NCBI RefSeq assembly: GCF_964340395.1
Contig: NC_135559.1
Location: forward strand, 5,688,001 to 5,752,000
Source: Glandiceps talaboti
Lineage: Eukaryota > Hemichordata > Enteropneusta > Spengelidae
Length of the DNA stretch: 64,000 nt
Direction of reading: 5' to 3'
Shown here: in pieces, positions 1,171 to 32,982 of the stretch
Layout of the letters: every line of letters starts with the position of its first letter
Position numbering within the stretch: position 1 is the stretch's first letter
Position numbers and translations under genes: made by a program
Notes under the pieces: generated by a model
Databases searched by the model: none
Seen by the model: the letters and a program-made list of their open reading frames with translations, nothing else
Told to the model about the DNA's origin: nothing

Positions 1171-2040
1171 ATGATGTTCACCTACGCTGTGTTATCCATT
1201 CTATTGGTCGTCTGTGAAGGTGGCTATCTGAGTCGTGCTAAGTTACCCGACTATGTCAACCAGGACCAGCTGTGTGCTCGATTCTATGACAACAATTCCT
1301 GTCAGAAGCCTTATCTTCACTGGGACCACCTTGACGTCCAAAACGGTGCAGATGTGCATATCGTTGACCCACGATGGAGAAATCGAATTTCTTCCTTGGC
1401 AGTGAAGGAGGAGTGCACACTAACAGTTTGGGATCGTGGGTTCAAGATTGGGAAACATCAGATCTTTACAAGCGATAGCTCTTGGCACAACTTACAGAGG
1501 GTGCCTCGTTGTCATACGTTCTCAGAGAAATATCTCAAGTTGAGTGGTGTGCACGTGATTTCATCATACACGTGCAACTGTGAAGAAAGTCCAAGTAAAA
1601 AGTATAGTTTAGAAGCCGGTAATATTTTTGATGACAATGATGGTAGCCATGTGATAAAACCACGGAAAGCACAACCTACTTTTGACACATTTAAGAATCG
1701 CCATATCATAGACGAAAGCAATGGGGAAAAACCGAAAGAAAAGGATACGGAATGGAATGAGTTGATACAAGAGCGAAACATTCCTCCGGAAGGCAGAGAA
1801 TACCATACTTTTATATACGGACGTGCTGAAATTATTAGAAAAGATTTCATCCATGTGCCGGATAAAAAAACAAAAAACTTATGCGTTAGTAGAGATACGT
1901 ATGACCTTTATGCCCTTAAAAAACTTAAAGTTGATAATGAATACCACTTTAACGCGAAATACAACAAAGTTGTATATGCTGCCTGCAACGACAAGGGGGA
2001 ACCATTCCACTTTGAAGCTAAAACTCTGGACGGAAAATGA
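1171..2040 (+). CDS. Secreted beta/gamma-crystallin-like + RNase A-like protein, paralogue 1
   Basis: The protein has 289 residues in one exon. Residues 1-17 form a signal peptide. Residues 32-137 resemble one beta/gamma-crystallin domain of two Greek-key motifs (LCARFYD..., RNRISSLAV, ECTLTVWD, then VISSYTCNC) with several Cys. Residues 171-285 align with RNase A: FKNRHII places His178 at His12, EYHTFIYG places Thr213 and Phe214 at Thr45 and Phe46, and EPFHFEA places His280, Phe281 and Glu282 at His119, Phe120 and Asp121. The Lys41 position holds Arg209. YAAC before the last histidine matches the VAC of RNase A. Most of the RNase A cysteines are absent. Coding in one exon is also usual for vertebrate RNase A genes. 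By family, the enzyme would cut single-stranded RNA after pyrimidines. Activity is not proven, since Arg replaces Lys. The first of two adjacent ATGs is taken as start. Confidence 0.8.
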   Translation: MMFTYAVLSILLVVCEGGYLSRAKLPDYVNQDQLCARFYDNNSCQKPYLHWDHLDVQNGADVHIVDPRWRNRISSLAVKEECTLTVWDRGFKIGKHQIFTSDSSWHNLQRVPRCHTFSEKYLKLSGVHVISSYTCNCEESPSKKYSLEAGNIFDDNDGSHVIKPRKAQPTFDTFKNRHIIDESNGEKPKEKDTEWNELIQERNIPPEGREYHTFIYGRAEIIRKDFIHVPDKKTKNLCVSRDTYDLYALKKLKVDNEYHFNAKYNKVVYAACNDKGEPFHFEAKTLDGK

Positions 2041-2193
2041 AATGAACGCTTTAACAAACCGGCTAGTTAGGTATCAAGTTAAATTTCAAGCAAGTGGTCA
2101 CGTAGACGCATATTTTTTTGGCATTTCATGATTTGTATTGAAAACTTTGTGTAAATGTTACATTTTACTTAGTTTTAGATTTAAAAAGATAAA

Positions 2194-2712
2194 TGACGTC
2201 ATCTATCACATCAATCCATTGACTACTGTAACAGTGTATCAATTACGTCATCTATCATATCAATCCACTGACTACTGTAACAGTGTATCAATTACGTCAT
2301 CTATCATATCAATCCACTGACTACTGTAACAGTGTATCAATTACGTCATCTATCATATCAATCCATTGACTACTGTAACAGTGTATCAATTACGTCATCT
2401 ATCATATCAATCCATTGACTACTGTAACAGTGTATCAATTACGTCATCTATCATATCAATCCATTGACTACTGTAACAGTGTATCAATTACGTCATCTAT
2501 TATATCAATCCACTGACTACTGTAACAGTGTATCAATTACGTCATCTATCATATCAATCCACTGACTACTGTAACAGTGTATCAATTACGTCATCTATCA
2601 TATCGATCCATTGACTACTGTAACAGTGTATCAATTACGTCATCTATCATATCAATCCACTGACTACTGTAACAGTGTATCAATTACGTCATCTATTATA
2701 TCAATCCATTTA
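2194..2712. repeat. 49-bp minisatellite, ten full units plus a partial, with CRE-like sites
   Basis: The array starts 153 bases after the stop of the 1171 gene, possibly in its 3' UTR. TTACGTCAT recurs every 49 bases, and the first (2194) and last (2684) sites are exactly 490 bases apart. The first unit has a perfect CRE, TGACGTCA, and the others TTACGTCA. Each unit also has the short palindrome CTGTAACAG. Units differ by only one or two bases (CCACTG or CCATTG, ATCATAT or ATTATAT), so the array is young or homogenised. Confidence 0.95.
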
Positions 2713-2996
2713 TTACTTCTATAACACATCTCTGTTTTGTTCTTATCCGATTTCATATTCTAGAATTTATGGCATGATGATTGTTCTTTTGTGTAGTGTA
2801 CATCTTTTTGCCAAGAATAGCAGATGATTCAAGTTATACATATAAATTACTGAGATAGGTGTAATGTCCAAATAATACGTGTGATATACTTAGAAATCTA
2901 ACGCATTTACATAGGCATTTTGATCACATATGATAAAGTATATAACACAGTTATTTCAAGGTATAGATTTTTATAAAGTAAGTATAGAAATTAACG
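2713..2996. other. Spacer, no feature seen
   Basis: AT-rich sequence between the minisatellite and the first hairpin element. Nothing coding is seen. Confidence 0.4.
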
Positions 2997-3089
2997 TAGT
3001 CTTGGTTACCCAGACTCTCGCCGCTGGGGCTCTGCCTACGAGTCTTGTAGGCAGAGCCCCAGTGGCGAGAGTCTGGGTAAACGAGACTA
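2997..3089. mobile_element. Hairpin MITE-like element, family A, copy 1
   Basis: This is an almost perfect palindrome of about 93 bases. The left arm begins TAGTCTTGGTTACCCAGA and the right arm ends TCTGGGTAAACGAGACTA, with arms of about 43 bases around a short central loop. A second, more diverged copy lies at 3432-3527. The short fold-back structure and several copies suggest a non-autonomous DNA transposon or foldback element. Confidence 0.85.
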
Positions 3090-3431
3090 AGTAGAAATGC
3101 AGTTATATATAATACAATGCGTTGAGTGAATGGACTAGGTTCCCAACCAACATACCAATAACAAGAGATATTAGATATCAACGGATAGACGATTTCCACG
3201 ATTTCATATGCGCATGCGGAACCAATCATAATACGTTAAGTAATCACGTGCTAAATTACATCCAATGAGTAGCATTTAACTAGGGAGGAGTTAGAGATTC
3301 CTACTATAGTTACAAATATTAGTGTTTTTTCATGTGAAATGTTAGATTTGGATTTAGCATCATTCAGTCATAATAAAGAATCAAGCATCCTTCTTGCAAG
3401 ACAATTGTCTGTAATGTGTTCTTGTTGTGTA

Positions 3432-3527
3432 CTGGTCTCAGTTACCCAGACTCTCCCCACTGGGGGCTCTACTACGAGACCACCCAGACAAGACCCCAGC
3501 GATGAGAGTCTGGGTAATCGTGACTAG
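3432..3527. mobile_element. Hairpin MITE-like element, family A, copy 2
   Basis: It shares GTTACCCAGACTCTC on the left and GAGAGTCTGGGTAA on the right with the copy at 2997. The middle of the stem is decayed, so it is the older of the two. Confidence 0.8.
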
Positions 3528-5596
3528 TAGTGAACTAGTGCTGTGAGAACTTTTACGTCCAAGCGAGTGTAACTAACTGACTGTTCAATGACATTTGGAG
3601 GCTAAGATCCTGAATAGAATAACATATAACTCTACTACAACGAATGAGTTCTATTGCGACGTCATCACAGTTGGTGTCTTTGTCAAGACTATATAAGATG
3701 TGTAAAGTAATTTAAAGTTATTACAATAGTTTCAAAAGGTCTCACAAATCTTACAATAGTAGAATGGCAGTTTAAACAAACTCTCACTTTCAGTCAAAGA
3801 CAATAGAAAATACAACAGCATTTAAGAGGAGAGAAAAACCTTTCAGAAAATATATGGGTTGATGGTGTAAACTTTATTCATTGTTGGGAAACAATAACTT
3901 GAAAATATGTCACCCTTAAAATCTTACCTTTGTGCATCTCTACCTTAAGGTGTCATCACTAGCTGCTTGACAAATGTTGCACGGGGGGGGGGGGGGGGGG
4001 TATGCGCCAACAACGACCGGACGTATATATGTTTGAGATGTTCACTTCACGAGAACGATGAAGGATGATTCTCTACACTAAACCAGCATAGCTTATAAAC
4101 GTGACGTCTGACCTGAACCAACCTGTTTTAATCTCGGTTACCCGGTTACCGCACAGACGAGGAAGAAATTTCACCTTGTATGGTAACTGGAATCCTTCAC
4201 AACTCGCTTTGCCATGAAGTGAGACACCAGCGGTGACTCGGCTGAAAACTAACTTATTCTGCAGTTTACTTTCAGTGTACTTCTAGTGTACTAGTATATT
4301 AAAGATACTTCGCGATGAGGCAACCTCACACGGGAGAGAGGATGCCAGTGAGGGCGCTATATTGCAGTCGTCATCACTGCACGTCATTTGTTATGAATGA
4401 ACCATAATGCATGTACTTCTTCATTTTTACAAGTTTATATAAAATGCTTGTAAAATTGATTTATTCATACCGGAAATACAAAGTACCTGGATAATTTGTG
4501 TAAAACATGTTTGTGATGACGAGTCAACATTTCCAGAACAGAGTCAATATAGAAATATACAATTTTAGAAACTCTATATACAGGTATTAATAATACGCCT
4601 AGAAACCACACATACATGTACTGTATTTAGCTATTCCGTGGATATATTTTGTAAGACACACAAGACGAGGCAATAAAACCAAATTATTTGTTTCAATTGT
4701 TTGAATGTTTTTCGTTCTATTTTACTTGCACGACAGATCATAAATTGTGACTTTGAAATTTAGGACAGAACTAGAAATTGTTATATTTATACAAACATCG
4801 CGTGTTTAAATATACCTATATTATGGGATAGTTTATTACTGATATCAAAGTCGAGCATATGTTCATTTATTGCAACCGTCCAAATTTATAAGAAAATATA
4901 TGAATGAAGTGTTCGGTCAGCAATGCCCTCTATCAACTCATCGATAGTCCTTTGACAGCAAAGCGTTTTACAAGTGAACACTACATATAAAGCTTTAGTA
5001 GTGTTAACTATTTGGTGTCTTTGTTCTCCTGTCTCGCAGTGCATGGTCTGAAACGTCTTGTACTGCTCATAAAATCTTAGTAAGATAAGATATAATTTGG
5101 TTAAGTCCATAAAGAGTTGAAAACTAGCTGACGTACATTATTGGTTAGTGTTAGGCTTCAGTCTGAATAAACACGTCATCAAAGTCACAATACGCTTATT
5201 ACTGCATCATGTCATCAACGTAAGAGCTGAGGTTTAAACAGACTGAGGTTTCATCGGAGTTAACGTTCTCTTCGTAAAAAATATTTATCAACTTCCAATA
5301 AAAACCATCATCATTTGAAAATTTGAATTTGGAAACCCGTAGTGTGGCAATATAGGCCCACTATTACTTCAAAAATTCCCCCATATATAAATATACGTAC
5401 GATGAAGAATCATTGCCTGGTGAAAAGTTCAACACATATATCGTTTTGACTTGCCTGTACCTGAATATAACTGTATTTAAATTTAGCAAAAATGTTGAAG
5501 TACTGTTTGCATGTACAAACCTATACCAATATAGAAATACCTTATATTGTCTGCTCATGTGTAGACTCGACTACTCGTCTAGTGGTATGTGATGAG
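3528..5596. other. Gap between the two crystallin-RNase genes
   Basis: No credible exon is seen on either strand. It holds a G run at 3979-3998 and AT-rich unique-looking DNA. A minus-strand frame of 74 codons at 4886-5110 has no recognisable motif. The last few hundred bases probably hold control sequence for the 5597 gene. Confidence 0.4.
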
Positions 5597-6406
5597 ATGA
5601 GGACATCTACGTACATCATTGTAGCTGTTCTCAGCGTCGCCTGTGAGGGTGGCTGTCCTCACCAAGCTGGGCTAACCGACCACGTCGAAGAAGGGCAGGT
5701 TTGTGCACGTCTTTACGAAGACGATTATTCTATTTACCCTCAATCCTGTGGTGGGGCTCACCTTGACGTAAAAAACGGAGCAGACGTAAAAGCCATCGAT
5801 TCATGCTGGAAGAACAGAGTGTCTTCGTTAGCAGTGAAGGAAGGGTGCAAGTTAACGGTGTGGGACCATGGTTCAAAATTGGGGGAAAGCCTCGTAATTA
5901 AAGGTAGCTGGTATAATTTAAAATCAATCCCTCGATGTTTTGAATTCGCGGTCACGTGTCTCGATTGGAATGACGTCATTGGGTCGTATACTTGCACCTG
6001 CGATAAACCTCCCAACATATACGTAGTAATGGGTAACTTCGTTCAACACCAGAAGACAAAACCCAAGATTCATTTAAGTTTTAGCCAAAAACACATCATC
6101 TCAGCAAAGCCGAAGAATTGGAAGAAAGAAATGGAAAGTCGCGGAATGTACAAAGACAAAGAACATAATAAGAAATCTAACACGTTCATAGTCGGTGATG
6201 ACAAGACGATCCTTTCAAGCTTCACTACACCTTATAATCATGGTGCAGCACAAAATCTGAAGAAGAGTAAGATAAAGTTTCCAATTTACGTGCTTACTTT
6301 GAATGACGTCACCAACGAGTATGAAGAGACGTATCGTGGCAAAAAGCATGCTGTTGTTTCGGTATCGAAGAACGGGAAACCAGAACATTATGAAGGGTAT
6401 ATCTAA
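5597..6406 (+). CDS. Secreted beta/gamma-crystallin-like + RNase A-like protein, paralogue 2
   Basis: The protein has 269 residues in one exon. The frame is open 35 codons further up, but the ATG at 5597 begins a good signal peptide (MRTSTYIIVAVLSVACEGG) that lines up with paralogue 1. Residues 34-136 are the crystallin-like domain (VCARLYEDD, WKNRVSSLAV, GCKLTVWDHG, WNDVIGSYTC), and NDVIGS fits the usual (N/D)(N/D)xx(S/T)S signature with one change. Residues 161-266 align with RNase A: FSQKHIIS gives His166 (His12), NKKSNTFI gives Lys192, Asn195, Thr196 and Phe197 (Lys41, Asn44, Thr45, Phe46), and KPEHYE gives His264 (His119). The full catalytic triad is therefore present. KKHAVVSVS matches the KHIIVAC strand. 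The RNase-like domain has no cysteine at all, unlike vertebrate members with six to eight. Likely a secreted ribonuclease (inference); partners are unknown. Confidence 0.82.
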   Translation: MRTSTYIIVAVLSVACEGGCPHQAGLTDHVEEGQVCARLYEDDYSIYPQSCGGAHLDVKNGADVKAIDSCWKNRVSSLAVKEGCKLTVWDHGSKLGESLVIKGSWYNLKSIPRCFEFAVTCLDWNDVIGSYTCTCDKPPNIYVVMGNFVQHQKTKPKIHLSFSQKHIISAKPKNWKKEMESRGMYKDKEHNKKSNTFIVGDDKTILSSFTTPYNHGAAQNLKKSKIKFPIYVLTLNDVTNEYEETYRGKKHAVVSVSKNGKPEHYEGYI

Positions 6407-13284: not shown

Positions 13285-15412
13285 ATGTTCTACAACTACG
13301 TATCCCCTCGTTTTGCTCTGCAAATAGTCGTTACAGGATGGCTGATATCCGCCGCCACTGCTTATTCAGGTGAGTTCAATGATCTCGGACCACACTGTTT
13401 GTTGTCTGAGGTTCAATGTAAATTGTAATGTACACATGTTATGTACACATGAAAAAGAGCATACAACCACCGCCACTGCTTATTCAGATGAGTTCAATGT
13501 AAACTGAAATGTACACATGTTCTGTACACATGAAATAAAGCACAGAATCATAATAACATGACATGTAACATGGTACAATACAAAGAAGATAAAACAGGTA
13601 CCAGGAGACAACAATGAAATGACACTAGTCTGAAAGGACCACTTGTTGGTCCGCTTATACTATATAATGCACAGTATAATCACTCGCTACCCAGCGTAAG
13701 AGTGAGTGAATGAATGAATGAATGAATCATTAATGGACGAATGCACAGATGGTAGACAAATAGATAGACATAGATCGATGGATGGGTAAATGAATGAATG
13801 AATGAATGAATGAATGAATAAACAAACAAATAAATAAATAAATAAATAAATTTACAACCGAAAAAAAATATTTCGGACCTAACCTGGTGACCGATTTTCA
13901 AAAAGAAAGATTTCAAAGAAGAAAAAAAAGAAAGTCAATTTTGATCGACGATATAAAAAAATGTATAAAGTCCCTTACAAGTAAGAACTCTCTCACACTC
14001 TTGACGAACTGGACATTCCATTATTGCAGGGATGGTCGCAACTGTTGCAGGAGGAGTTGACATTGGTACTGGCAAGCGTTTGAATAAATGTACGGAGGCT
14101 TATACGGGTTCTAAAGATGGCAAAACAACTAGTGCAAGATTCCATTACCCATGGGGCATTGCGTACGACCCCATCGGAAAAGTTCTCTACGTAGCTGACT
14201 GTGTGAGTATAGTAGTCTATGTATGTTGTATAATGTATCACTCTGAATATATTAGCTATCGTGAAGGGTAGATTGTTCGCTTAGAAAATACATTTGAAAT
14301 GATCCACTAAATTGATAACTATATTGGTTTATATTTTCAGGGGTGTTCTGGATCTGCGAGAGCTGATGACCGCATTAGAAAGGTTGATATTAAAACAGGT
14401 ACGTACGTCAATCTAGTAGTCGACGGAATGTGAACGCATTTCTCTCACCTGACGTAAGGTGGCGCACTTATTGCAGGTAGCGAGAATTTAGTAAAGACAT
14501 CCTACAAATAGTGTGGAAATCGGTAAATTAAATTATGTGATCGACTCTGAGTATTTATTTTCCTTCCACCAGTTCAACAATATTTAGCAAAGAATTTAAT
14601 GATTTTATATACTCGTGAAGTACTGAAAATGATACATTATTACGAACGCAACTTACAAAATTTGAATCATCAAGCAACAGATATGCTATAGGCAACCATG
14701 ACATGAGTGTATAAAATTATCACAATTTATTATGTTATTCATTAATTAAATGTTTTAGAGTAAGACGGTGGTTAGAATTTACGGTGCGGGGAAGGGGGGG
14801 GGGGCTGAGGAGACAAATACATTTCGCAGCCCCACTATCCCAAGCTCATTTTTGCAAACATATAAGGTAAATGACTGCTCCTGAAGGTAGTTTTTATCAT
14901 CTGTCCCCTATTCCCCATTATTACACATTCATAAAATCATAGCTCCCCTCCTCCTTTGAACTTCAATTTTTTTGATACCACTCTTCCAATCCCAACGTTT
15001 TTCATACCACTCCAATTTCTCCCTAGCCCCCCCCCCCCACGTAAAATCTGGCCACAGTCAAATAGAACATTAATATTTGGAAAATGTAAAATATGATGGC
15101 AGACGACTCCTTTTCCCGTACATGCATACAGGACACGTGACAACATTAGCTGGGTCTTTACAAGGGTACGAAGATGGTATTGGAGAAAATGCCAAGTTTC
15201 ACCATCCTGCAGGTGAGATACTAGTATGTAAGGTACGCCGCGACGGGGCGCCCTCAAACATCGGCCAACCCCTGTGAGAGGAGGCCGGTGAGGGTGAAAC
15301 GTCACGACGTATCTTACACTAAGTTACAGTCTAGTGAGATACTTAATGTTTTAGTCTTGGTCATCATATGTGATTCTATATATATATATATAAATATATT
15401 CTATATATTTAT

Positions 15413-15450
<38 letters not shown>

Positions 15451-18400
15451 TTTGTGAATATCATGATATTGGCGAATATGCTCAACGTAGGAATATTTGA
15501 AAGTCATAGTTAAACTGGAATCGTGTTAGCTTTGATCTCAGACCACTGTATTTAGTGGTCTGTGCTTTGATTCAATGCTGCATAATCACCGTCTTTAGTG
15601 ACATTTTACTATCACCACGTCAACCAAATTCAGAAGGAAATCAACCAGTTGCAATCGGTTACTTCAAGTTGTTTCTGCAATCCAATGTTAACTAATGATA
15701 CATTTTACGCTCAGACCACCTTGGTCTGAAATTTACGCCAATGTTGGAAAGGGGGGGGGGGGTGAATGGTTTGGCTATTTCTAATGACGTAAGTATTGTT
15801 ATCCTTCCACGGAAATGGAGGGGTGAAGGGGGAGAAATGTGAATGATTTGACTATTTCTAATCATATAAGTATTGTCAACCTTTTTTTTGAAGACGATGT
15901 CACAATTAAATACACATAAATCAATGTTATCAATAATTTCTTTCAGGCATGTCCATGCATCGAAAAACAAGAACTCTTTTTGTCTGTGACAGTGTAAGTT
16001 GACCACGTATCGCTAAACTTGCCTAATTTCTCATTGTATCAGTGAAACATGTACATGTGATCAACAATATGGCCAGCCCAATAAAAAGATAATACGACTT
16101 GTATCACGGATCAGTACATAATTAGCAAAACGAAATTTGTTTTCTTCTAATAGGGAACTTGTAAACCCACCATGTTGAATGTTGCATCATAGGAAATGTG
16201 ATGATAAATAATAATCAATTAGTATTGTAAACAATGTTGTTAAATTGTTTATAACCACGAATGACCAATTCATATTTAGCTTGACCAGTGTGGGAGGTTT
16301 ATTTCATTGGTAGCTCCAGATAAGATATTTTACGATAACCACAGATAATCCCATAGTCCTTTCCGTCTGAGCATGGTCAGTCTGGATTGCAAGTTCCCTA
16401 TTCTACCGACAAACCTATACCTATACACAGACGGCAAACAAAGAATCAAATTAATGGTGCCTGGTTGATATTTTACTTATAGAGCGTCAATCACCCAATG
16501 AAAAAGAGATCACAGATATATACGTATCACTAAATATACGTCGAAAAATTGAGCAAAAGAGGGGTTTACGCTGTCAATTTTAAGATTATATTGGACAAAG
16601 GCGACTATTGAATGGGTAACTGTCCCAAAGTATTAGTTGAAATGATAGAAATGTTTCATTCGATAATTTATCCCCCAAGTCAGTGGACCAATCATTTCGG
16701 TACGCAATAGTACGAGGACTTTGCATATATCATTTGAAAATTTGCCAATATTGCAACTACTAACGACACGACAAAAGTTATACAGTAATTGTTTTATCGC
16801 ATAAGCCTACAAATTACTAATATCGCAAAGTTCATGGCACTCGCACGTACAGCTGCTACATATGTATAAGTGAAGCTAGACACTCGCACGTACAGCTACA
16901 CGTCATATAAGTGTAGCTAGACACTCGCACGTACAGCTACACGTCATGGAAGTGTAGCTAGACACTGACACGTACAGCTATACGTCGTGTAAGTGTAGCT
17001 AGACACTCACACGTACAGCTACACGTCGTGTAAGTGTAGCTAGACACTCACGTGTACAGCTACACGTCGTGTAAGTGTAGCTAGACACTCACGTGTACAG
17101 CTACACGTCGTGTAAGTGTAGCTAGACACTCACGTGTACAGCTACACGTCATGTAAGTGTAGCTAGACACTCACACGTACAGCTACACGTCGTGTAAGTG
17201 TAGCTAGACACTGACACGTACAGCTACACGTCATGTAAGTGTAGCTAGACACTCACACGTACAGCTACACGTCGTGTAAGTGTAGCTAGACACTCGAAAC
17301 GTACAGCTACAGCTAAGTTTAGCATACAATTCTAAATTGTCTTTGACTAACAACATGCATATATACATTTGTTTGATCTATTTGTAGGCAAATCATCGAA
17401 TAAGAACTATAGATGTTGACACAGGTAAGTCACGTGATTATAACTGCAACTATCCTTTTGATAATTTAGATATCGTGTAAGATATTCTGAGATTTAAGCT
17501 TTCCAATCCGTTGACATTTCTTGGCAGAGATATATAATTATCAAAAGAATTGTGTTCTACAATATATTATAGCAAGTTAACGTGGAACTTTACGTCGTTT
17601 TGCACGACAAAATCTTCACTACCATTACTACATTGTATCGTCTGGCCTGACAAAATTGTTACATTTTAACCCGAATCAGTTGAAGATAGCTCACCCAAAG
17701 AAAATATAGCAGAAGACGATAACACGAGTTTTTAATAGTGAGACTTTTCAGTGTCCAGCTAAGTACTAAGTGATACAATGTAGCAATAGTAGTAAGTCTT
17801 TAAAGTTTTATAGTCATATTTAATATATGTGTATGTACATTATATATGTGTGTGAGAGTGTGTGAGAGTGTGTGTGTGTGTGTGTGTATGTGTGTGTGTG
17901 TGTGTGCTTGTGCGTGCGTGCGCACTACTGCAACATGTTATAATCATACATTCAAATCCACGTCTACACAGGAAAGGTAACTACTTTTGTCGGAAGTGGT
18001 AAAGAAGCGTTGATAGATGGAAAACAAACAAATGCCGCATTTAACAATCCACAGGCTGTGGCTGTAGATCACGTCCATAAAGACAGGTTATTTGTAGCAG
18101 ACACGGTAAGTTTTGTGATACTAAACATTCGTTATCTATACATAATGGTTAATCGCTGACTCCTATGAGATAATGCGTGTCTATGACAAGGACTCGGCAC
18201 AATGAATGGGGAAAAAATGTCAACTCGTGTCGGTGCTTTGTGTTTCATCAACATGTACGATTATTTCACAACGTCGTAAAGCACAGGCCTCTTTACGGCA
18301 CCGTCTCTTTACGGCACCGTCTACAGGCCTCTTTACGGCACCGTTGCTTTAGCAGAAATATGTTTTCTGGCTTGCGAAAATGTTCATATACTCATATATC

Positions 18401-19969
18401 ATAATTATATCAGACTATTTCTAGAAGTAAGCTTTACAAAAAAAAATATAATGGCAAAGTGAGAATATTAAACTTTAATGGTAAATATGTTTAGTGAGTT
18501 GAAACTAAAATAAGTCTACCTAAGATGCGCTGTCGTTACATTTAAAAAATAGACAACTTAACGTTAGGTGACGTCAAACTTGAAGGTTAAAGCTTATACA
18601 TGGCAACGTGGGTATTTTTAGCACATCATTGCGAAGAATGTATTTTCTTAGTGAAATTACTGGGTGTACTAATTGTTAGCGATGTCCCTGTGTACAGTGA
18701 TAGGACCATGTATCTAAACAAACCGTACTCATCTTGTATTCAGGATAACCACGCTATAAGGGAAGTCAGTTTACCAGATGGTGAAGTGACTACACTAGCT
18801 GGTGGATCCAAAGGATTGAAGAATGGTATAGGAAAGTATGCTACTTTCTATCACCCAGCTGGTGTTACCATCGATCCAAACGGCTATAGGCTATTCATAG
18901 CTGACCACGTAAGTTCATCAATGACACTTGTCGGATTACGGCTAGCTGTCAAAACAGTTGTCTGACCAGCGCAATTTAAAAAGTTGTCCTGAACTCAGAC
19001 CACTGACATTTTAGTGGTCTGAGTCCTGAATAAATGAACGATACGCCACAATGTTACAATTTTCATACTAATCATGTACATTTCAATTCTTTTACTTTCA
19101 GCTGAAGTTTGATTTGATCATTTACGACGATTTTCAACCCTTAGTACTGAAAAGAAACACGAATTATCAGTGGTTTTTTGAATTGATTACACTGTATTAC
19201 GTACTAGTAGATTATACATACATATAAAACGCTTACAACATATTCCTCTTTCTATTCACAGTATAACCATGTCATTAGAATAATCAACTTGGAGAACAGT
19301 AAGTTTCTTGAATAACTACGCTATTTTAACAACTATTAGACTGATAAACATACCCTCTGACGTCAGATTTGAACACTTATCTATGTTAGGCATGTACACC
19401 AGTGTGTAATCCTAGTTGTTAGTATAGACAGCTAAGTTATGTCTCACTTTTCCGTTACTAGTATTTCAGACCACTATATCTACATGTAGTAAGGGATATT
19501 CCACTAGTGGCGAGATCTCACGAGACCGCCTAGCAACGGTTGGAGTATATTCATTCTTGTTTATAATTCAGTGACATTATTTGATGTGTATATAATATAT
19601 ATCTTGATTTCAAGACATGGTAACAACATTGGCTGGTAGTGGAAAACCTGGGTTTATTGATGGTATAGGAACACAGGCAATGTTTGAATACCCTGAAGGA
19701 ATGGTATACGATACTGATTACAACATTCTATACGTAGTGGAATTCGTAAGTACGATTATCAGAATAGTGCAATACGTACTAATCTGTCTTATGGCAGAAT
19801 CTGTACATAACTCCCACCACGGTCGTTCTTACAACCGAGATCACTGTACAGTACAACCTACTCATCGTCGTTTTTAAGTAAACGTTAAAGTTTTTCTCTT
19901 TGAAAACGCCGCTCTTTGACAGTGTCGGCATATGTAGTACATGAGTGAAACTGCGAAATTGTTTTATTA

Positions 19970-20054
<85 letters not shown>

Positions 20055-22185
20055 GTCAAGACACAGCACTTTTAGATTTGATAACGATATGCTCAAATCA
20101 AACCCTTTGCCAGAAATCGGTAAAATCCCAAGTTAGTGTACTTTTATCGAGAAATTTGCCACGGTAAGTCTACGAATACTAGTAGTTATCCAGTTAGTAT
20201 GTTGTCTTTGACTCTACCGAACAACGCAGGTTTTCCCCGGGTACTCCGGTTTCCTCCTGCATTAACACTGAACTTTCCTCCTGTTATTGGGCAATGCCTG
20301 TTGGGTGGTTAATAAATAACTAAATATCCATACAATTTCACTAAATTTGTTACAATACAAATGGTCAACTCTATACGTACCTTGACCTGTAGTCAACTCG
20401 AATTATTGTAAAAACTTTTGTTAACATTTTCAAATATTTCAACCGAACTTGTTCACCGTGTTCTTTACATTTACATTTGCAGAGTAACCACTGTATTCGG
20501 ACAGTCTCGGAACAAGGTAGGAAGTGACACTTCACTCATCGTCCCATGTGGTTTTTTTTTTTTTAAAACAGGTGTCCAATGATAAATGAATACCACACTG
20601 AATGCGATGTAATATTTTGAATTCACACGTTGTAATGAATCTATAACAATCGTCAGAAAACAACGCATTATAACTATATGCAACTACATAGTGTTTTCTC
20701 TTCTGATCACCAAAAGCTAAGTTATATTTTCTTCGCATGCAAACTGTTATTTATTATGACGCCAATTGTTCGTTTACATTATAACTAGGGGAAGTTAAAC
20801 TCTTTGTTGGCGGGAAACAAGGAAGGTCTGACGGTGAGGGCGAGGAGGCATCTTTCTTTCACCCAACAGGGATGACGTATGATGAAGAAAATAAAATAAT
20901 TTACATAACAGACCAGGTGAGTTTCAAAACTAAACACTGGTTTGGTAATGACTTCGAAAGATGTAGTACAATCATAAATAAGTCTAAAATTACTTTAAAC
21001 CTCCAGCATGGTGCTTCATTCGGGACAAAAAACATCACAAATGCTATGAATAAAAAAGAAGTTGAAAAAAATAAAAATGTATTAATTCATTCATGGCCGG
21101 TAAAATATATAGAGCGATGGAAACATACATTCATTCACTTTATTATATTATATTTTACAACTCTTTTTAATGATTTATTTTTGCATTATCAAATTTGAGG
21201 AAAATGGCTCATACGATGGATCAATCGTCCATTGCTCTCTCTCTAATCATATAATTTAGCACTAGTGTACCTTTGTTTTGACCTGTAAGCTTCATATGTC
21301 TTATCTATACATTTACTTGATATTTTACAATTGCAGTATAATCACCTTGTACGCAGTATAAGTGCAATTGGTTCCAAGGTGTCACCACCAGGCACTATGA
21401 CAAGTAAGTAAATCATTAGAAGACCTTGATATACTACTAGTATTTTGCTACGTACCACCAAACTAGAGAGAGTATAGAGTTTCAATTTACATCTGATATA
21501 TACATGTACCACCAAACTAGAGAGAGTATAGAGTTTCAATTTACATCTGATATATACATGTACCACCAAACTAGAAAGAGTGTAGAGTTTCAATTTACAT
21601 CTGATATATACATGTACCACCAAACTAGAGAGAGTATAGAGTTTCAATTTACATCTGATATATACATGTACCACCAAACTAGAGAGAGTATAGAGTTTCA
21701 ATTTACATCTCACACAACGTTTTTGTTACCGTACACACACTGATTGCGCACAATCCATGCACATTTTCCCCAAAACTATATATATTTCTTTATGTATCTT
21801 GTGCAAATCATGTTACAATCCTATTATTATCCATTGCACAGATCTGTTTGCATATAATGTTCCCTTTTCGATCGTCTATTCCTTTCTGTTTGCATTTTCT
21901 ATAAACAATCCTGTCAACTTTCAATTTCCTCTTGTCATCAACCATAAGTCGTGTCACCGACCCGATGTGAGAGGGCGCCCCATCACGGCGTACCTTACAG
22001 ACTACTTAATAAAACCAATCTACAATCTAATTTTATATTTTCCAGTTGAAAAAGTGGTCACTGCCATCAGAGGGAGTCGCAATACGGGAACGGTATTGAT
22101 TACATTAACGTTCATACTCTTCAGTGCACTTGTCATAGTGTGCATATGCCGTCGACAGGGCCGTCGAATGATGTCCAAAATTTGA
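13285..22185 (+). CDS. NHL-repeat six-blade propeller, single-pass membrane protein
   Basis: Fourteen exons: 13285-13369, 14030-14202, 14341-14398, 15132-15212, 15947-15993, 17388-17424, 17972-18105, 18744-18908, 19262-19298, 19615-19745, 20483-20516, 20789-20916, 21337-21403 and 22046-22185. All introns are GT-AG, and the phases join into one 438-residue protein. Residues 1-28 are a signal peptide. Six NHL repeats follow, each with a VTTLAG-like strand, an F-x-x-P-x-G turn, a LYVADx-like strand and an NHxIR strand. Residues about 409-427 form one membrane helix, followed by a short basic tail. The propeller is therefore outside the cell and is likely a binding module; the ligand is unknown. 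An in-frame upstream ATG (13033) exists but would spoil the signal peptide. No RING or B-box is present, so this is not a TRIM-NHL protein. Confidence 0.85.
13352..13530 (+). repeat. Partial duplication of the exon 1 end and its donor
   Basis: CCGCCACTGCTTATTCAG recurs about 118 bases downstream at 13470. There the splice donor GTGAGT has become ATGAGT. The flanking GTACACATGTT/CTGTACACATGAAA text is also repeated. It is a decayed local tandem duplication in intron 1. Confidence 0.8.
13701..13852. repeat. (GAAT)n and (AAAT)n microsatellites in intron 1
   Basis: Two GAAT blocks are joined by GATAGACA-like sequence and run into AAAC/AAAT units. Confidence 0.9.
15228..15317. mobile_element. Short palindromic MITE, family C, beside a splice donor
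   Basis: The left end GTAAGGTACGCCGCGA and the right end TCACGACGTATCTTAC are inverted repeats. The element starts 15 bases after the donor of exon 4. Related copies lie at 21948-22003, 37800-37881 and 60017-60100, all under 100 bases and without coding potential. Confidence 0.8.
15377..15447. repeat. (TA)n-rich microsatellite in an intron of the NHL gene
   Basis: Repeated TATATA blocks broken by ATTCTATA. Confidence 0.9.
15537..15563. repeat. Small hairpin, AGACCACT / AGTGGTCT family
   Basis: CTCAGACCACT and AGTGGTCTG fold back on each other. Like structures lie at 18994-19023 and 57431-57497. They look like collapsed remains of a hairpin element. Confidence 0.65.
16149..16402. mobile_element. 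MITE family B, copy 2 (about 254 bp)
   Basis: It has perfect 13-base terminal inverted repeats, AATAGGGAACTTG and CAAGTTCCCTATT. The body matches 6655-6911. It lies in the intron between exons 5 and 6 of the NHL gene. If the terminal TA is counted as target site, the repeat proper is GGGAACTTG. Confidence 0.9.
16839..17311. repeat. 41-bp minisatellite of hairpin-forming units
   Basis: About twelve units repeat at 41-base steps (for example 16888, 16929, 16970, 17011). Each unit holds AGCTACACGTC and GTGTAGCT, so every unit can fold on itself. It ends 76 bases before exon 6 of the NHL gene. Confidence 0.95.
17842..17922. repeat. (GT)n-rich microsatellite before exon 7
   Basis: GTGTGAGA and GT units run to within about 50 bases of the acceptor of the exon at 17972. 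Confidence 0.85.
18286..18346. repeat. Triplicated CTCTTTACGGCACCG motif
   Basis: CTCTTTACGGCACCG occurs three times in 60 bases. CCTCTTTACGGCAC is also found at 11753 and a near copy at 38529. It may be the end of a dispersed element. Confidence 0.7.
18994..19023. repeat. Small hairpin, AGACCACT / AGTGGTCT family
   Basis: CTCAGACCACT and AGTGGTCTGAG are perfect 11-base inverted arms with a short loop, in an intron of the NHL gene. Confidence 0.75.
19970..20058. repeat. (AATC)n microsatellite
   Basis: About 21 almost pure AATC units lie in the intron after exon 10 of the NHL gene. Confidence 0.95.
20226..20317. mobile_element. Possible dispersed repeat with TCCCCGGGTACTCCGG core
   Basis: The segment TTTTCCCCGGGTACTCCGG followed by TTTCCTCCTGCATTAACACT resembles a conserved stretch that I recall from interspersed repeats of many marine animals. 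The family name cannot be given safely. Element ends are not visible. Confidence 0.4.
21452..21710. repeat. 54-bp minisatellite, about five units
   Basis: GTACCACCAAACTAGAGAG recurs at 21452, 21506, 21560, 21614 and 21668. As 54 divides by three, open frames appear on both strands, but these are by-products of the repeat. Confidence 0.95.
21948..22003. mobile_element. Short palindromic MITE, family C, truncated copy
   Basis: The right end CGGCGTACCTTACAGACT and the inner GAGGGCGCCC match the copy at 15228 in the opposite direction. The left terminus is missing. It ends about 40 bases before the last exon of the NHL gene. Confidence 0.7.
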
Positions 22186-23140: not shown

Positions 23141-26007
23141 TACATGTATTATTTTTTACAGTTTGTTTTTTATTATTGAATTTTGTTCTGATGTAGTTTT
23201 TATATACATCGAATGAATGACACAGTTACACAGTGCAATAAACGAACAAATAAATCAATGAAGTTTATAAAATTTCATAATCTGTACACTATTTCTTACG
23301 TGTTTTATTTTGTCTTCAGTTCTTCAGTAATATCTGCAGGAAAGACATAATCTCTTTTTTTTTAATTTAACGACTTATTCATCATGTGAACTTCAAGAAA
23401 CAGTTACTGTGGAAAAGTTTGTTTTTCCAGTAGAATAGTGTTTTATTGATAAAAAGATCGATTCAACTCTATCTGAGAATATAAGCCTATCATAGGAGTA
23501 GGCCAATCTCAGTGCGTTGTATGCATGTTATTCTGAACAAAATACAATATGACGATACATGTGCTGTTGTTTAGAAAACTTGTGATTCAAAATTATGATT
23601 TCAAACTGCTAAACAAAATATATGAGAATATAAAAGTAACCCGTGTCCACGGTTCCACGTGACGAAATCTCGTGAAACGGAAAGTTTCGATGATCATTTT
23701 CGCGATAATCATTAAATTTTATAAGTTGCACGTGCAATGTCAAGCGTACACGCCACATATGCCACATGAGTATGGATACAATGAAAATTCTTTTAGCATA
23801 CAACAAACTTAATTAAATTTGTCCAAAACTCCACTAATTCCGTAATTTAAAGAAAAAGTATTGCATGCTCTCGGATGATTTTGCTGAAATATAGCGCGAT
23901 GTTCAGGAACGCGCACTCGGACGTTACGTTTTCACTGCACACTTTCACACGCGATGCCAATTTAGAATCTTTCAAACATCGTACGCGCAAGCAAGATTGG
24001 AAGTTGAACTTTTACACTATCCCGTGCAGTTGTGGTTGCTGGCGGGTCGGGGTACTGTTTTAGTGCGAGAACTTGTTTGGCTAGTATGGCTATTGTGGGT
24101 GTCGACATCGCTGGGAACTTACAGCTACCGGCCTCATGTACTTTGGGAGATCAGGGTTTCCGAATAAGACGCCTTCCTCTTTGCAACGATGTCGACAAAT
24201 GTTTTCCCTCAAGCTTAAGTTCATCCTCCTTGTCTGTGTCGTCTAGAGCCCCCGAGACAGAGTTTGCGACGTCATCTTCAACACAGCTTATATATTGCAG
24301 CCGCCCTTTTGAAAGTGAAATCCAGTACTCGAAAGTAAGATGTCTTGATCGAAACCAGCACTCGGAGAGACAGGAAAATGTAGCTGCACTCCCTTTGAAA
24401 TATGTTCAAGTAAGGAGGGGAAACTTTCCGCGGTTTAACGAATTCAAATCTTTCGTGAAAAACGTTGGTTTAGGAGGACGAACTGTTACCGTCAGTTCGT
24501 CTACAAGGAGCGAAACAAGTTTTCCGTCTGAAAGAGGGGTATTGGATAATAGTACTAGGGAGATAAATAATGCGACCATCAGAAACGTTTTTGAGTTAGG
24601 GCGACCGAGTCGTCTTTCTGATGGAAACGTTACATATACCACGGGAAGAATACCAATGTTACCATATTCTCTCGTAAGCACGTGTAGACAGACATGTTTT
24701 GATGGCCCAGTCATGTCGATGAGAACACGGGCATATTGGGAAAGACAGCCCCAACAGTACTGTAACAACGATATAGCTTCGAGGCCTCCCTCCTTCAGGT
24801 TGAAGAAATCTCCCCTCACGCCAAGCCTGGACGAAATTATCGATGGGAAGACGCCGACTATGGTAGTCAACAAGAAAGTTACACCACTTTTCAAACGCAA
24901 GAACATAGATTTAGCCAAAATTATTGGAGAATATGTAATAGAACGTGAACAACGATGTGATGATTTCGACTGGGAACTAGATTTCTTGGGAGTACCTCGT
25001 GAGGAGAGAAGTAACGAGGATACGACTTTACCCCTGATCATGCAACAAACACTCAACGGACCTAGCGTAAGTTGGAGCACTGCAAAGCAACCATTGCCGA
25101 CACCATTAGAATGTTTCTACGGCGAATGCTCGTTAAATCATGTACTGCACTGGCCAAATACATTTGATCTGATAAACGTAGGAGAACCAAACATAGAGGT
25201 TGGGGATGGTACACCTGACATGAAGAAGAAACCTATTCGACGAGAGTTGTTCCCTCCACCAAACAAGAAACTAAAAGTGAGCCACCCTGATGAAAGTGAC
25301 CATTGGTTTGGATCCCCTATGAGTGAGTAGGCGGTTATCATACTTCACCTTGATGTGCCATCTTAAACTATAAAAATATATGATTCGGATGTGTTTTTTT
25401 ATTATGACGAAATATTGATATTGGGAGGGAGGCCTAGGGGAGGGAAGTGGTAAAATTTCATTATCTTGTACAATATTGTCGGTGGGGAGCAGGAGTAGAT
25501 TACCTCCAGTACTCTGGTAAAATTTTGCAAACGTCCTAAAATATGGTACGGCCAAAATAATGAAATAGAAAAGTAAGTTGCCATGCAGGTAGTAGTCTTG
25601 CTGCTAGACGTTCGGGCTCGCAGTGAGGGCTTGCCCGAACACTTGGATGTTCCATCCTCGATAGCGATGTTCGGTCGTGTGTCGTATTGTATCGGAAGGA
25701 CATCCGAGGTCTAGCAGATAGACTATGCAGGTAGTAGCTCCTCATGTTATAAATAGGGGTAATAGGGCGCCCTCTACCATTGTCCTGTATAATTTGGTCT
25801 TTTTTATGAGCGAGATGGGGATTGAATGCAGTTTGTGAAAACCTATATGTAACAGTTACTGTAACAGTAATCAGCCAACAAACCAACAAACAAATGTACA
25901 AATGACACACATATTCAAATTGTTGACAATTCTGTTTCATCAGGTATTACAGACAGTCCTACAGCACAGATACATGAAATGCGAAGAGATGCCAGGGAAT
26001 TGCGCAA
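22813..26007. repeat. Tandem segmental duplication, left copy (3195 bp)
   Basis: This unit is repeated immediately at 26008-29203. It runs from inside the LINE ORF remnant through a complete promoter and exon 1 of a gene into exon 2. The first 370 bases or so differ at several sites between copies; the remaining 2.8 kb look identical, with a constant 3196-base offset. The junction at 26007/26008 is direct, without filler. Confidence 0.97.
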
Positions 26008-26011: not shown

Positions 26012-29000
26012 GATTTGTCTTGAATGCATGGCGATTATGGGTGTTCTTTAAAGTGGGGGGGGGGGAGTTCCAGTGTTTTACAGCAGCATATTTAAAATTA
26101 AATCGGCAAAATGTATGATGTACTTTTGGTATTGGAACATTTCCGTGAGTTGCTGATCTTGTTGCGTAATTGTGGGGTAATTTTTCATTTATATAGTGGC
26201 TTAGTGTATGACAATAACGGTTAGTTTGTAAGTCAAATATGAACATGCATGTATGAAATTTGCAGAGTTTGTGAATATCTAGGATTTTTAGGTGATGGAA
26301 TAGAGGGGCAGAATGTGAATGTCATTTTAATACATGTATTATTTTTTACAGTTTGTTTTTTATTATAATAATTGTATTTTGTTCTGATGTAGTTTTTATA
26401 TACATCGAATGAATGACACAGTTACACAGTGCAATAAACGAACAAATAAATCAATGAAGTTTATAAAATTTCATAATCTGTACACTATTTCTTACGTGTT
26501 TTATTTTGTCTTCAGTTCTTCAGTAATATCTGCAGGAAAGACATAATCTCTTTTTTTTTAATTTAACGACTTATTCATCATGTGAACTTCAAGAAACAGT
26601 TACTGTGGAAAAGTTTGTTTTTCCAGTAGAATAGTGTTTTATTGATAAAAAGATCGATTCAACTCTATCTGAGAATATAAGCCTATCATAGGAGTAGGCC
26701 AATCTCAGTGCGTTGTATGCATGTTATTCTGAACAAAATACAATATGACGATACATGTGCTGTTGTTTAGAAAACTTGTGATTCAAAATTATGATTTCAA
26801 ACTGCTAAACAAAATATATGAGAATATAAAAGTAACCCGTGTCCACGGTTCCACGTGACGAAATCTCGTGAAACGGAAAGTTTCGATGATCATTTTCGCG
26901 ATAATCATTAAATTTTATAAGTTGCACGTGCAATGTCAAGCGTACACGCCACATATGCCACATGAGTATGGATACAATGAAAATTCTTTTAGCATACAAC
27001 AAACTTAATTAAATTTGTCCAAAACTCCACTAATTCCGTAATTTAAAGAAAAAGTATTGCATGCTCTCGGATGATTTTGCTGAAATATAGCGCGATGTTC
27101 AGGAACGCGCACTCGGACGTTACGTTTTCACTGCACACTTTCACACGCGATGCCAATTTAGAATCTTTCAAACATCGTACGCGCAAGCAAGATTGGAAGT
27201 TGAACTTTTACACTATCCCGTGCAGTTGTGGTTGCTGGCGGGTCGGGGTACTGTTTTAGTGCGAGAACTTGTTTGGCTAGTATGGCTATTGTGGGTGTCG
27301 ACATCGCTGGGAACTTACAGCTACCGGCCTCATGTACTTTGGGAGATCAGGGTTTCCGAATAAGACGCCTTCCTCTTTGCAACGATGTCGACAAATGTTT
27401 TCCCTCAAGCTTAAGTTCATCCTCCTTGTCTGTGTCGTCTAGAGCCCCCGAGACAGAGTTTGCGACGTCATCTTCAACACAGCTTATATATTGCAGCCGC
27501 CCTTTTGAAAGTGAAATCCAGTACTCGAAAGTAAGATGTCTTGATCGAAACCAGCACTCGGAGAGACAGGAAAATGTAGCTGCACTCCCTTTGAAATATG
27601 TTCAAGTAAGGAGGGGAAACTTTCCGCGGTTTAACGAATTCAAATCTTTCGTGAAAAACGTTGGTTTAGGAGGACGAACTGTTACCGTCAGTTCGTCTAC
27701 AAGGAGCGAAACAAGTTTTCCGTCTGAAAGAGGGGTATTGGATAATAGTACTAGGGAGATAAATAATGCGACCATCAGAAACGTTTTTGAGTTAGGGCGA
27801 CCGAGTCGTCTTTCTGATGGAAACGTTACATATACCACGGGAAGAATACCAATGTTACCATATTCTCTCGTAAGCACGTGTAGACAGACATGTTTTGATG
27901 GCCCAGTCATGTCGATGAGAACACGGGCATATTGGGAAAGACAGCCCCAACAGTACTGTAACAACGATATAGCTTCGAGGCCTCCCTCCTTCAGGTTGAA
28001 GAAATCTCCCCTCACGCCAAGCCTGGACGAAATTATCGATGGGAAGACGCCGACTATGGTAGTCAACAAGAAAGTTACACCACTTTTCAAACGCAAGAAC
28101 ATAGATTTAGCCAAAATTATTGGAGAATATGTAATAGAACGTGAACAACGATGTGATGATTTCGACTGGGAACTAGATTTCTTGGGAGTACCTCGTGAGG
28201 AGAGAAGTAACGAGGATACGACTTTACCCCTGATCATGCAACAAACACTCAACGGACCTAGCGTAAGTTGGAGCACTGCAAAGCAACCATTGCCGACACC
28301 ATTAGAATGTTTCTACGGCGAATGCTCGTTAAATCATGTACTGCACTGGCCAAATACATTTGATCTGATAAACGTAGGAGAACCAAACATAGAGGTTGGG
28401 GATGGTACACCTGACATGAAGAAGAAACCTATTCGACGAGAGTTGTTCCCTCCACCAAACAAGAAACTAAAAGTGAGCCACCCTGATGAAAGTGACCATT
28501 GGTTTGGATCCCCTATGAGTGAGTAGGCGGTTATCATACTTCACCTTGATGTGCCATCTTAAACTATAAAAATATATGATTCGGATGTGTTTTTTTATTA
28601 TGACGAAATATTGATATTGGGAGGGAGGCCTAGGGGAGGGAAGTGGTAAAATTTCATTATCTTGTACAATATTGTCGGTGGGGAGCAGGAGTAGATTACC
28701 TCCAGTACTCTGGTAAAATTTTGCAAACGTCCTAAAATATGGTACGGCCAAAATAATGAAATAGAAAAGTAAGTTGCCATGCAGGTAGTAGTCTTGCTGC
28801 TAGACGTTCGGGCTCGCAGTGAGGGCTTGCCCGAACACTTGGATGTTCCATCCTCGATAGCGATGTTCGGTCGTGTGTCGTATTGTATCGGAAGGACATC
28901 CGAGGTCTAGCAGATAGACTATGCAGGTAGTAGCTCCTCATGTTATAAATAGGGGTAATAGGGCGCCCTCTACCATTGTCCTGTATAATTTGGTCTTTTT

Positions 29001-30792: not shown

Positions 30793-32982
30793 TTAGATCC
30801 TTGATGGGTACAGCATCTATCGAGAAAAAATGGGGAGAACAAACATATTAAAATCATGTTAATTCACCTTCTAACACTTAGGGACGATCGCACAATGCCG
30901 TATAAACTCAATAAATGAACTTTGTTCATTTAGGACAAACCCCCTCCCCTAAATGAACATTCACAAGTGTGACATTGACAAGTAAACTGGTAATTGAACC
31001 CTATAACCATATAAGAGCATACATTGATGTCTGAGTGATACTAACATACCTAATTTGCCAAGACAAGTTTTGGATTGTAATGGATATCTAACTAATTCAA
31101 ACAAATAACAGTAAACTTACAACTCTGATTCTTTTGCCCATGGCCTTAGATGGTAGGTTTCTCCTAAACTTAGCTCTCACAGCACCACTTTTACCATGAG
31201 GCCTGGTCACCTTACCCCAGATAACACGCACATTTGTTGGTTTTTCTCTGCCTGGAGTTTTTGTCTTGCTGAAAGATGTAAAGTTGTGAAGAGAACATTA
31301 CAATTTTAAACCTGCATCAAGACAACTACTGTGTTCTACTAAGTAAATAAACAATTCTTGCACACAATCCATATAATGGAGTGAAATTGCACTACCCTGG
31401 TATTTGCAATCAAATGACAATATCACATCCTTGGAAATCGAGAATGAAAAATACACGAGGAATTGAATGAAGTTGAAAATTAACATGTATCATTCATATA
31501 TTTTATGACATATACTATTTCAAGTAAAGACATCATTTCAAACAGTTTCATGACATGGAACATTCATGATGTTCCTAAATTTTACATGGCATATAAAAAC
31601 GACTTCCTACTGAAGCTGCATACTGTAGTCGTATTTATTTTGGCACACAAGAAATTTAACAGAATGGTTACTTAGGACATGTCAGGCACACTTTAATTTG
31701 GTAGACAGTGCAAGGGCCAAGTAGACACTACTTGTAAATGACCCATCCAGTCAACCCACCATACTTGGTGCCACAGTTGACATCTTTGACAGCAACAGAA
31801 ATATGACAACTTGTTAAGTATGTTAGCTTGACTTATTTCTGCAGAAAAAGCTTTTGCATGTATTCAGCTGAAATAAATCTAGTGCTGAAAAACTAGTCTG
31901 TAAGATACGACATTCGTGTAATGCTATCAGCCAGCACTCGCAGTGGTTAAGATGCCTGATAGGGCTGAACAACACAACGTATCTGACAAGTTGGCTGCAA
32001 TAATTGTAGCGTTTACTGTGATATTGAGGGCTTTTTCGTCTGTTTTTGTGCCTTTTTTCATTCCGGTTTAACCTGAGTGAAACGCTGCAAGTCCTGTAAT
32101 GCAAACGCAAATGGATGGAACCGATTCAGATCTGAAAAGTTGTGCAAATTTTTCTGCTAAATTATGCCTTACCTGGCAAAAAATCAGACATTTCCTAACG
32201 CCAACATTAATTACGGAGCCTTCAAGACCCAAGAAGTGTTCAGAGGTACCCCAATTCCATCAAAATCGGCGAATGTAGCAATGCATGCAGCATTTTGAAA
32301 AGGGCAGTACGCTGACATCTTGCTCACATTTTCAACGTTGTCTCGTCTAATTCGTTGTAAAACATCGGAACGCAAAAAGGCACAAAAACAGACGAAGAAG
32401 CCCTCAAAATCACAGCACATGCTACAATTATTGCAGCTACTGACAAGTCTACTGAAAAACATGCGACAACAGTAAGTGGAATGAATCAGTTCATCCCTTT
32501 TGTTTTTGGTTATTTTTGTCAAACATACTTACTTCTTGGCTTTGTATACATATGCACATCGTTTTCCAAGGTAGAATTCACATTCCTTTCGTTTAGTGAC
32601 ACCATCTATTCTGAGAAGAGCAGTATGTTCACTTTGGTTTCTTAGACCACGTCTGTAGCCTGTGAACACTGCTTTGGCATACAATCTATAAACACAAAAT
32701 CAAAGTTATATTAGCTGCCTTTCACTCACACCTATAACTGGAATATCCTATATACTTTGAGTTGAAAGCTAGTCACTTTCTTCTTTTTTCACGAAAGTTG
32801 TGATGTTCATGTACATATGAAGTTGATAATTATTATGAATATTGTGTACTAATATCTAAATATATCTACTAATCATGGGTTTGGGTTTCATATGGCATTA
32901 CCGACTTTATACACATGTTCGTGATACAAGTTGTAAACAACTGACGTTCACTGTTCAGCCCTTACCTCTTCGACGCCACCAT
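30793..32982 (-). CDS. RPL35A: 60S ribosomal protein L35a (eL33)
   Basis: Coding exons on the minus strand: 32966-32982, 32533-32685, 31121-31268 and 30793-30816. They join to a 113-residue protein, about the human length (110). It reads [54 protein letters not shown] and ends RIRVMLYPSRI, a clear match to RPL35A along its whole length. The protein is a structural part of the large ribosomal subunit. A non-coding first exon is likely at 33320-33353, beginning CTTTTACAG, a short pyrimidine start as expected for translation control by the TOP system, and a second 5' UTR part is at 32983-33012. The neighbouring IQCG gene is divergent. Confidence 0.97.
30924..30958. repeat. Perfect 12-bp inverted repeat in the last RPL35A intron
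   Basis: GTTCATTTAGGA and its mate CCTAAATGAAC enclose a C-rich loop (CAAACCCCCTCCC). It could form a hairpin in the pre-mRNA. No C/D or H/ACA snoRNA boxes were found around it. Confidence 0.7.
31984..32447. mobile_element. Long inverted repeat in an RPL35A intron
   Basis: The left arm (31984-32066) and the right arm (32363-32447) are inverted copies about 83 bases long. They share GCAATAATTGTAGC, GAGGGCTT and CGTCTGTTTTTGTGCC. The spacer of about 296 bases has no clear ORF. Terminal repeats of this length suggest a non-autonomous DNA transposon. Confidence 0.75.

Follow-up and report, generated by a model that had tools for sequence, protein, structure and literature searches.

A tandem pair of genes near the start of the 64,000-nucleotide stretch analyzed here (contig NC_135559.1, positions 5,688,001 to 5,752,000, forward strand; hereafter, the window) probably encodes ribonucleases that are secreted with a syncollin module and are homologous to vertebrate ribonuclease A (RNase A). 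The genome is non-vertebrate, and the host is most likely an enteropneust hemichordate. The two proteins, the products of gene 1 and gene 2 (Table 1), share one architecture: a hydrophobic N terminus that resembles a signal peptide (judged by eye), a syncollin domain, and a C-terminal RNase A-related domain.

Two intact paralogous genes stand in tandem at this locus. Both coding frames are intron-free and lie where the preliminary description of this DNA had placed them; the stop-to-stop runs that contain them, 329 codons for gene 1 and 311 for gene 2, exceed the maximum of 217 codons found in 60 Markov-simulated 64 kb windows. The open frame of gene 2 extends further upstream, with an additional in-frame ATG at 5492 in the open reading frame listing. 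The two proteins are 34% identical over 286 aligned columns (expectation value, E, 1e-46); their N-terminal halves share 64 of 134 aligned residues and their C-terminal halves 31 of 131. The genes differ at a fraction of 0.445, 0.389, and 0.611 of first, second, and third codon positions, respectively, which is the pattern expected for coding DNA. When the whole genome (a 590 Mb assembly of 47 contigs, with the window inside a 25 Mb contig) was searched with the gene 2 protein, only the gene 1 and gene 2 loci were found at E <= 0.001 (five candidates scored). A wider tandem array was also considered and set aside, as the 10 kb upstream gave no significant tblastn match (best E 2.3).

Two kinds of repeats lie between the genes. 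A minisatellite lies just 3′ of gene 1 (2192–2708; a 49-base unit in 10.6 copies, with 97% matches), and the intergenic region carries two copies of a palindromic element resembling a miniature inverted-repeat transposable element (2994–3092 and 3421–3538), whose arms are 90% and 75% complementary, respectively.

The relationship to RNase A is carried by profile searches against 177,635 distinct sequences of the PDB, in which matches were collected to E 10. A profile built from the two trimmed C-terminal domains returned 50 matches, all of them in the RNase A superfamily (best E 7.1e-5), and the match is collinear over ~109 columns and exclusive to this superfamily. With the untrimmed alignment, 49 of 50 matches were RNase A superfamily members (best E 1e-4), and the remaining match was a cell-binding factor. 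The same search with the trimmed sequences reversed returned nothing. The entries nearest to the two domains are angiogenins; they make up most of the matches and, being mainly variants of a single protein (presumably human), are not independent of each other. The remainder includes angiogenin-4, zebrafish RNase5, pancreatic ribonuclease A, and an oocyte ribonuclease. Along the same lines, an hhalign comparison of the two domains with three vertebrate RNases (bovine RNase A and two angiogenins) gave a probability of 90.6 (P value 1.3e-6) over 85 columns that start past the His12 region. The Pfam RNase A profile, PF00074, matched the gene 2 domain over profile positions 5–117 of 121, with E 0.0016 and a best score of 19.2 bits; across four trims of this domain, E was 0.0016, 0.0018, 0.0022, and 0.0093, the shortest spanning positions 10–117.

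Shuffled sequences point the same way. For each of the five sequences compared, 2,000 shuffles were made, of which 1,614–1,974 were scored by HMMER, and none reached the true score in either direction of comparison. The real and best-shuffle scores were closest for bovine RNase A (9.8 and 8.0 bits) and stood further apart for the two angiogenins (23.1 and 6.3 bits; 19.8 and 5.4 bits), gene 1 (13.3 and 8.6 bits), and gene 2 (14.3 and 10.4 bits). The C-terminal domain is, on these comparisons, very probably homologous to RNase A, and we infer an RNase A fold for it. The preliminary description had proposed this relationship from the order of a few motifs; it is now supported by a significant profile match, with an empty reversed control, and by the non-vertebrate character of the genome (see below).

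The landmarks on which that proposal was based are present in both proteins and in the expected order: F-x3-H, (N/H)-T-F, a hydrophobic strand, and H-(F/Y)-(D/E) near the C terminus. Gene 1 has HTF where gene 2 has NTF, and the C-terminal motif reads H-F-E in gene 1 and H-Y-E in gene 2, preceded as in vertebrate enzymes by P-x. None of 200,000 shuffles per domain retained the ordered landmarks, for a pattern that was written after viewing the sequences. The strand had been likened to HIIVAC; it reads KVVYAAC in gene 1, with the cysteine, and HAVVSVS in gene 2, without it. Gene 2 has lysine at the Lys41 place (KKSNTF), as described earlier, and gene 1 has arginine there. HMMER and MAFFT place NTF, the Lys41 position, and the His119 equivalent identically, and the last of these is present in both genes. 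In the MAFFT alignment, F-x3-H of both genes is paired with the F-x3-H12 of RNase A, Thr45 and Phe46 are kept in both genes, Asn44 is kept in gene 2 and replaced by histidine in gene 1, and both genes have asparagine at the Asn71 place, while Glu111 is not kept. The domain also resembles vertebrate RNase A in length (~115 residues) and, for gene 2, in its cationic character (isoelectric point, pI, 9.7).

Several results weigh against this relationship. The E-values of the single domains are weak: taken alone, the gene 1 domain matched angiogenin in 33 of 38 cases (best E 0.19) and the gene 2 domain in three of three (best E 0.52). Among full-length proteins, gene 1 matched angiogenin in two of three cases (E 0.44 and 0.5), and none of the four matches of gene 2 was an RNase A. 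The best PF00074 score lies below the curated Pfam cut-off of 23.1 bits, and this profile matched four of six gene 2 constructs (neither the full protein nor the longest piece) and none of five gene 1 constructs. The gene 1/gene 2 locus was likewise not picked up when PF00074 was run genome-wide, where only candidates passing a loose prefilter were scored. A Foldseek search with a model of the gene 2 C-terminal domain found no RNase A in the best 50 of 57 matches (best E 1.7), with a model whose mean predicted local distance difference test (pLDDT) score was 36.0. HMMER places the F-x3-H histidine on the first histidine of angiogenin (HFLTQH), which precedes the catalytic histidine by five residues; the F-x3-H histidine is hence likely, rather than shown, to be the His12 equivalent. 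Only one of the six cysteine places of the family is occupied by cysteine in gene 1 (Cys110), and none in gene 2. Finally, no orthologues were found in the non-animal collections searched. AlphaFold models (mean pLDDT 34.9 for full-length gene 2), which were built from alignments of two sequences only, were unusable; the order of their predicted elements (helix, strand at NTF, helix, strands) resembles RNase A but, at such low confidence, was not taken as evidence.

A different fold that bears the motifs by chance or convergence would fit the lack of a confident fold, single-sequence E-values above 0.1, the absence of an RNase A match for full-length gene 2, and the sub-threshold Pfam score. 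Such an origin is nonetheless very improbable in view of the collinear match over ~109 columns to a single superfamily in 50 of 50 cases, the empty reversed control, and the failure of any scored shuffle to equal the real sequences.

The genome-wide PF00074 search gave a single weak place, on contig C14, where 30 residues matched at E 1.34. This piece resembles the family in C-N-x-x-M-K-x-R-N and C-K-P-x-N and scored 15.8 bits against a three-sequence vertebrate profile; it had no score with the profile of the gene 1 and gene 2 domains, its surroundings held no other parts of an RNase A, and in line with its E-value it is probably a chance match. As the genome-wide PF00074 search is blind to the gene 1/gene 2 locus itself, other divergent copies may exist.

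Homology to RNase A does not make the two proteins canonical members of the family. Vertebrate RNases have six cysteines in common and three to four conserved disulfides, whereas the RNase A-related domain of gene 2 has no cysteine and that of gene 1 contains two, of which one falls on the Cys110 place. The family signature is given as CKxxNTF (PMC3845642), in place of which gene 2 has NKKSNTF and gene 1 GREYHTF. Asn71 and Glu111 are described as mostly conserved across the vertebrate family (PMC6794472), and the latter is not retained here. The domain further differs from vertebrate RNase A in following a syncollin domain and in having a non-vertebrate host. As the cysteines and the signature were checked and not found, we class the two proteins, judging from their predicted sequences, as a related, disulfide-free lineage and not as canonical RNase A.

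Domains with an RNase A fold are known from bacterial toxins, and a toxin domain of the Yersinia kristensenii CdiA-CT kind (PF18431), captured horizontally and resembling vertebrate RNase A by shared fold only, is an improbable source of the domains described here. This explanation overlaps as to function with that of a ribonuclease homologous to the vertebrate enzymes. The gene 2 domain and CdiA-CT (PDB 5E3E) are both disulfide-free (PMC9086364), and each stands at the C-terminal end of a larger protein that is exported. However, 5E3E is absent from the 50 matches of the trimmed and of the untrimmed profile search, and PF18431 was unmatched at E up to 10, in a search in which HMMER filters drop weak matches, which leaves room for a remote relation. 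The active site of the bacterial domain is His175, Arg186, Thr276, and Tyr278 (PMC9086364), as opposed to the apparent His-Lys-His here, with no sequence match between them. Similarly, the MafB2-CT domain of N. meningitidis B16B6 has a His335/His402/His409 active site (PMC9970974) and no sequence match to the present domains. A tblastn search of prokaryotic genomes at E 1e-3 found no relative, and neither did gene 2 or the domain profile when run against a collection of 5.8 billion proteins, where the 147 and 55 candidates, respectively, included none at E <= 10; these negatives are of limited reach. Viral contigs yielded no homologue, and NCBIfam gave nothing but an unrelated match at E 0.12. 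Because none of these is an animal collection, the absence of homologues says little.

The N-terminal half of both proteins is a syncollin domain (PF15138), which the preliminary description had overlooked; its account of an RNase A-like C-terminal domain stands, and the functional picture changes with the added module. Both genes exceed the curated cut-off of this Pfam family (32.8 bits), and gene 2 covers the family from end to end. In the whole-genome profile search, the gene 2 domain scored E 4.6e-21, and the two genes were the only matches at E <= 0.01 (three candidates scored). Syncollin is a pancreatic zymogen granule protein that reportedly binds membranes and forms pores. In contrast to syncollin, whose 112-position Pfam model spans the N-terminal half alone, an RNase-like domain follows here.

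If the ribonuclease reading is correct, gene 2 would encode an active, metal-independent endoribonuclease that cleaves single-stranded RNA by the RNase A mechanism, with the His12 equivalent acting as base, the His119 equivalent as acid, and the Lys41 equivalent stabilizing the transition state. Metal-free cleavage is expected because the domain is strongly basic and keeps the triad's motif residues. Gene 1 may have a weaker, different, or specialized activity, given the arginine at place 41 and a nearly neutral domain (pI 7.1). The syncollin domain could pack the enzyme into secretory granules or hold it to membranes. The site of action may be the gut lumen, in the digestion of dietary RNA, or microbes that the enzyme would attack; both would fit. 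Exocrine cells of sea urchins express ribonuclease-family members of unspecified kind (PMC9437490), which lends plausibility to a digestive role in the related hemichordates.

The domain could also be homologous to RNase A and yet non-enzymatic: like some vertebrate members of the family, it might bind RNA or membranes or act as a cationic antimicrobial. The arginine and near-neutral charge of gene 1, and the absence of the usual disulfides from both proteins, are what one would expect in this case. It is nevertheless unlikely: gene 2 retains Lys41, and F-x3-H, T-F, and P-x-H survive in C-terminal halves that share only 31 of 131 residues, a pattern suggestive of selection acting on the active site.

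Nothing was found in favor of the contig being a vertebrate contaminant, which is hardly conceivable: the window lies in a contig of 25 Mb, its RPL35A exon shares 38 of 50 residues (counted by hand) with its second-best match, L35a chain 3jaj, presumably mammalian, and mitochondrial ATA is read as isoleucine, with AAA absent from ten genes. The mitochondrial contig is a repeated genome, with a 15,435-base unit present roughly three times in head-to-tail order, as COX1 (PF00115) occurs at three places this distance apart; the other mitochondrial genes were named by eye from their translations. Across ten protein genes (2,944 codons), AAA, AGA, and AGG are absent, ATA occurs 62 times, and AAG 36 times. 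In COX1 (four sites) and cytochrome b, ATA stands, by our reading, at sites where the consensus of other animals is isoleucine. The COX2–ATP6 interval contains CTCTTAA, read as a tRNA-Lys anticodon loop with CUU. ND4L adjoins ND4, and the cytochrome b gene is flanked by ATP6 and COX3.

Reading ATA as isoleucine is a trait of echinoderms and hemichordates, and not of vertebrates, amphioxus, or tunicates (PMC2697986; PMC3121625). In Balanoglossus, AAA is absent and the tRNA-Lys loop is CU CUU AA (PMC2697986; PMC3121625), while ND4L and ND4 are not adjacent in echinoderm mitochondria (PMC2697986). The present genome differs from Balanoglossus in the place of cytochrome b, which is beside ND5 there (PMC2697986; PMC3121625), and in using AAG, a codon said in one sentence of PMC3121625 to be missing. 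The genome is non-vertebrate, as the preliminary description had supposed, and the reading of ATA, the absence of AAA, the tRNA-Lys CUU loop, and the ND4L–ND4 adjacency make an enteropneust hemichordate the most likely host.

The RNase A family is called vertebrate-specific (PMC2720953; PMC6794472), in agreement with the preliminary description. Invertebrates are said to have no RNase A genes (PMC3845642), and only vertebrate members are described as known until the bacterial CdiA-CT (PMC9086364). A title-level search of mostly open-access literature gave, among the matches listed, no invertebrate RNase A member and no syncollin–RNase protein; automated annotation in RefSeq or InterPro may already contain such proteins. 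On the evidence, what appears to be a disulfide-free relative of RNase A that bears the active-site motif residues and is joined to syncollin in a probable hemichordate is unusual.

If these are homologues by descent, the RNase A family would be older than vertebrates, its disulfides having been added later or lost in this lineage, and the origin of the superfamily would move back; late capture is the alternative. We tentatively suggest, with rather less confidence than we have in the homology itself, that a disulfide-free His-Lys-His enzyme fused to syncollin was already present in the ancestor shared by hemichordates and chordates, and that the two parts were separated in vertebrates, where the RNase gained its disulfides. 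With a hemichordate relative that has the active-site motif residues and no disulfides, the question of how the family arose becomes open to direct test. Folding studies could gain an RNase A that is disulfide-free by nature, and the protein may stand midway between the disulfide-free fold of bacteria and the enzymes of vertebrates. Its fusion to syncollin also links two pancreatic secretory proteins in an animal that lacks a pancreas; if this fusion is ancestral, two products of the vertebrate pancreas would have been coupled before a pancreas existed.

Table 1. Coordinates of the tandem genes, their predicted domains and landmarks, and two neighboring exons in the window.
Feature	Position	Strand	Details
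Gene 1 (P1)	1171..2040	+	289 residues; N-terminal hydrophobic stretch, syncollin domain, RNase A-related domain
Gene 1 syncollin domain	1261..1503	+	PF15138; residues 31-111; profile 13-93 of 112; E 3.5e-13; 50.2 bits
Gene 1 RNase A-related domain	1672..2037	+	residues 168-289
Gene 1 F-x3-H histidine	1702-1704	+	motif at residues 174-178
Gene 1 Arg at Lys41 place	1795-1797	+	
Gene 1 HTF	1804-1812	+	
Gene 1 His119 equivalent	2008-2010	+	
Gene 2 (P2)	5597..6406	+	269 residues from ATG 5597; domain architecture as gene 1
Gene 2 syncollin domain	5654..6001	+	PF15138; residues 20-135; profile 2-112 of 112; E 4.6e-23; 82 bits
Gene 2 RNase A-related domain	6056..6403	+	residues 154-269; pI 9.7; cysteine-free
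Gene 2 F-x3-H histidine	6092-6094	+	motif at residues 162-166
Gene 2 Lys41 equivalent	6170-6172	+	KKSNTF
Gene 2 His119 equivalent	6386-6388	+	
RPL35A exon	32538-32693	-	41/50 residues shared with best match 9eho (hand count)
DRC9/IQCG exon	35248-35490	+	E 1.5e-7 to a DRC9 chain; one of several exons of a DRC9/IQCG-like gene

Elsewhere in the window, four exon-like frames on the forward strand (14005–14268, 17944–18153, 18591–18962, and 20785–21195) carry a repeated motif that resembles NHL by eye, and one of the four has a weak match to Pfam NHL (E 0.067). Two identical open frames of 440 residues (24008–25330 and 27204–28526, forward strand) lie 3,196 bases apart, with identical neighboring frames repeated at that spacing, and represent either a very recent tandem duplication or a duplication in the assembly; the first copy had no Pfam match. 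Beyond the RPL35A and DRC9/IQCG exons lies the putative start of an LRCH gene (39877–40051, forward strand). RPL35A, IQCG, and LRCH3 adjoin at human 3q29 as well, so that the block may be old.

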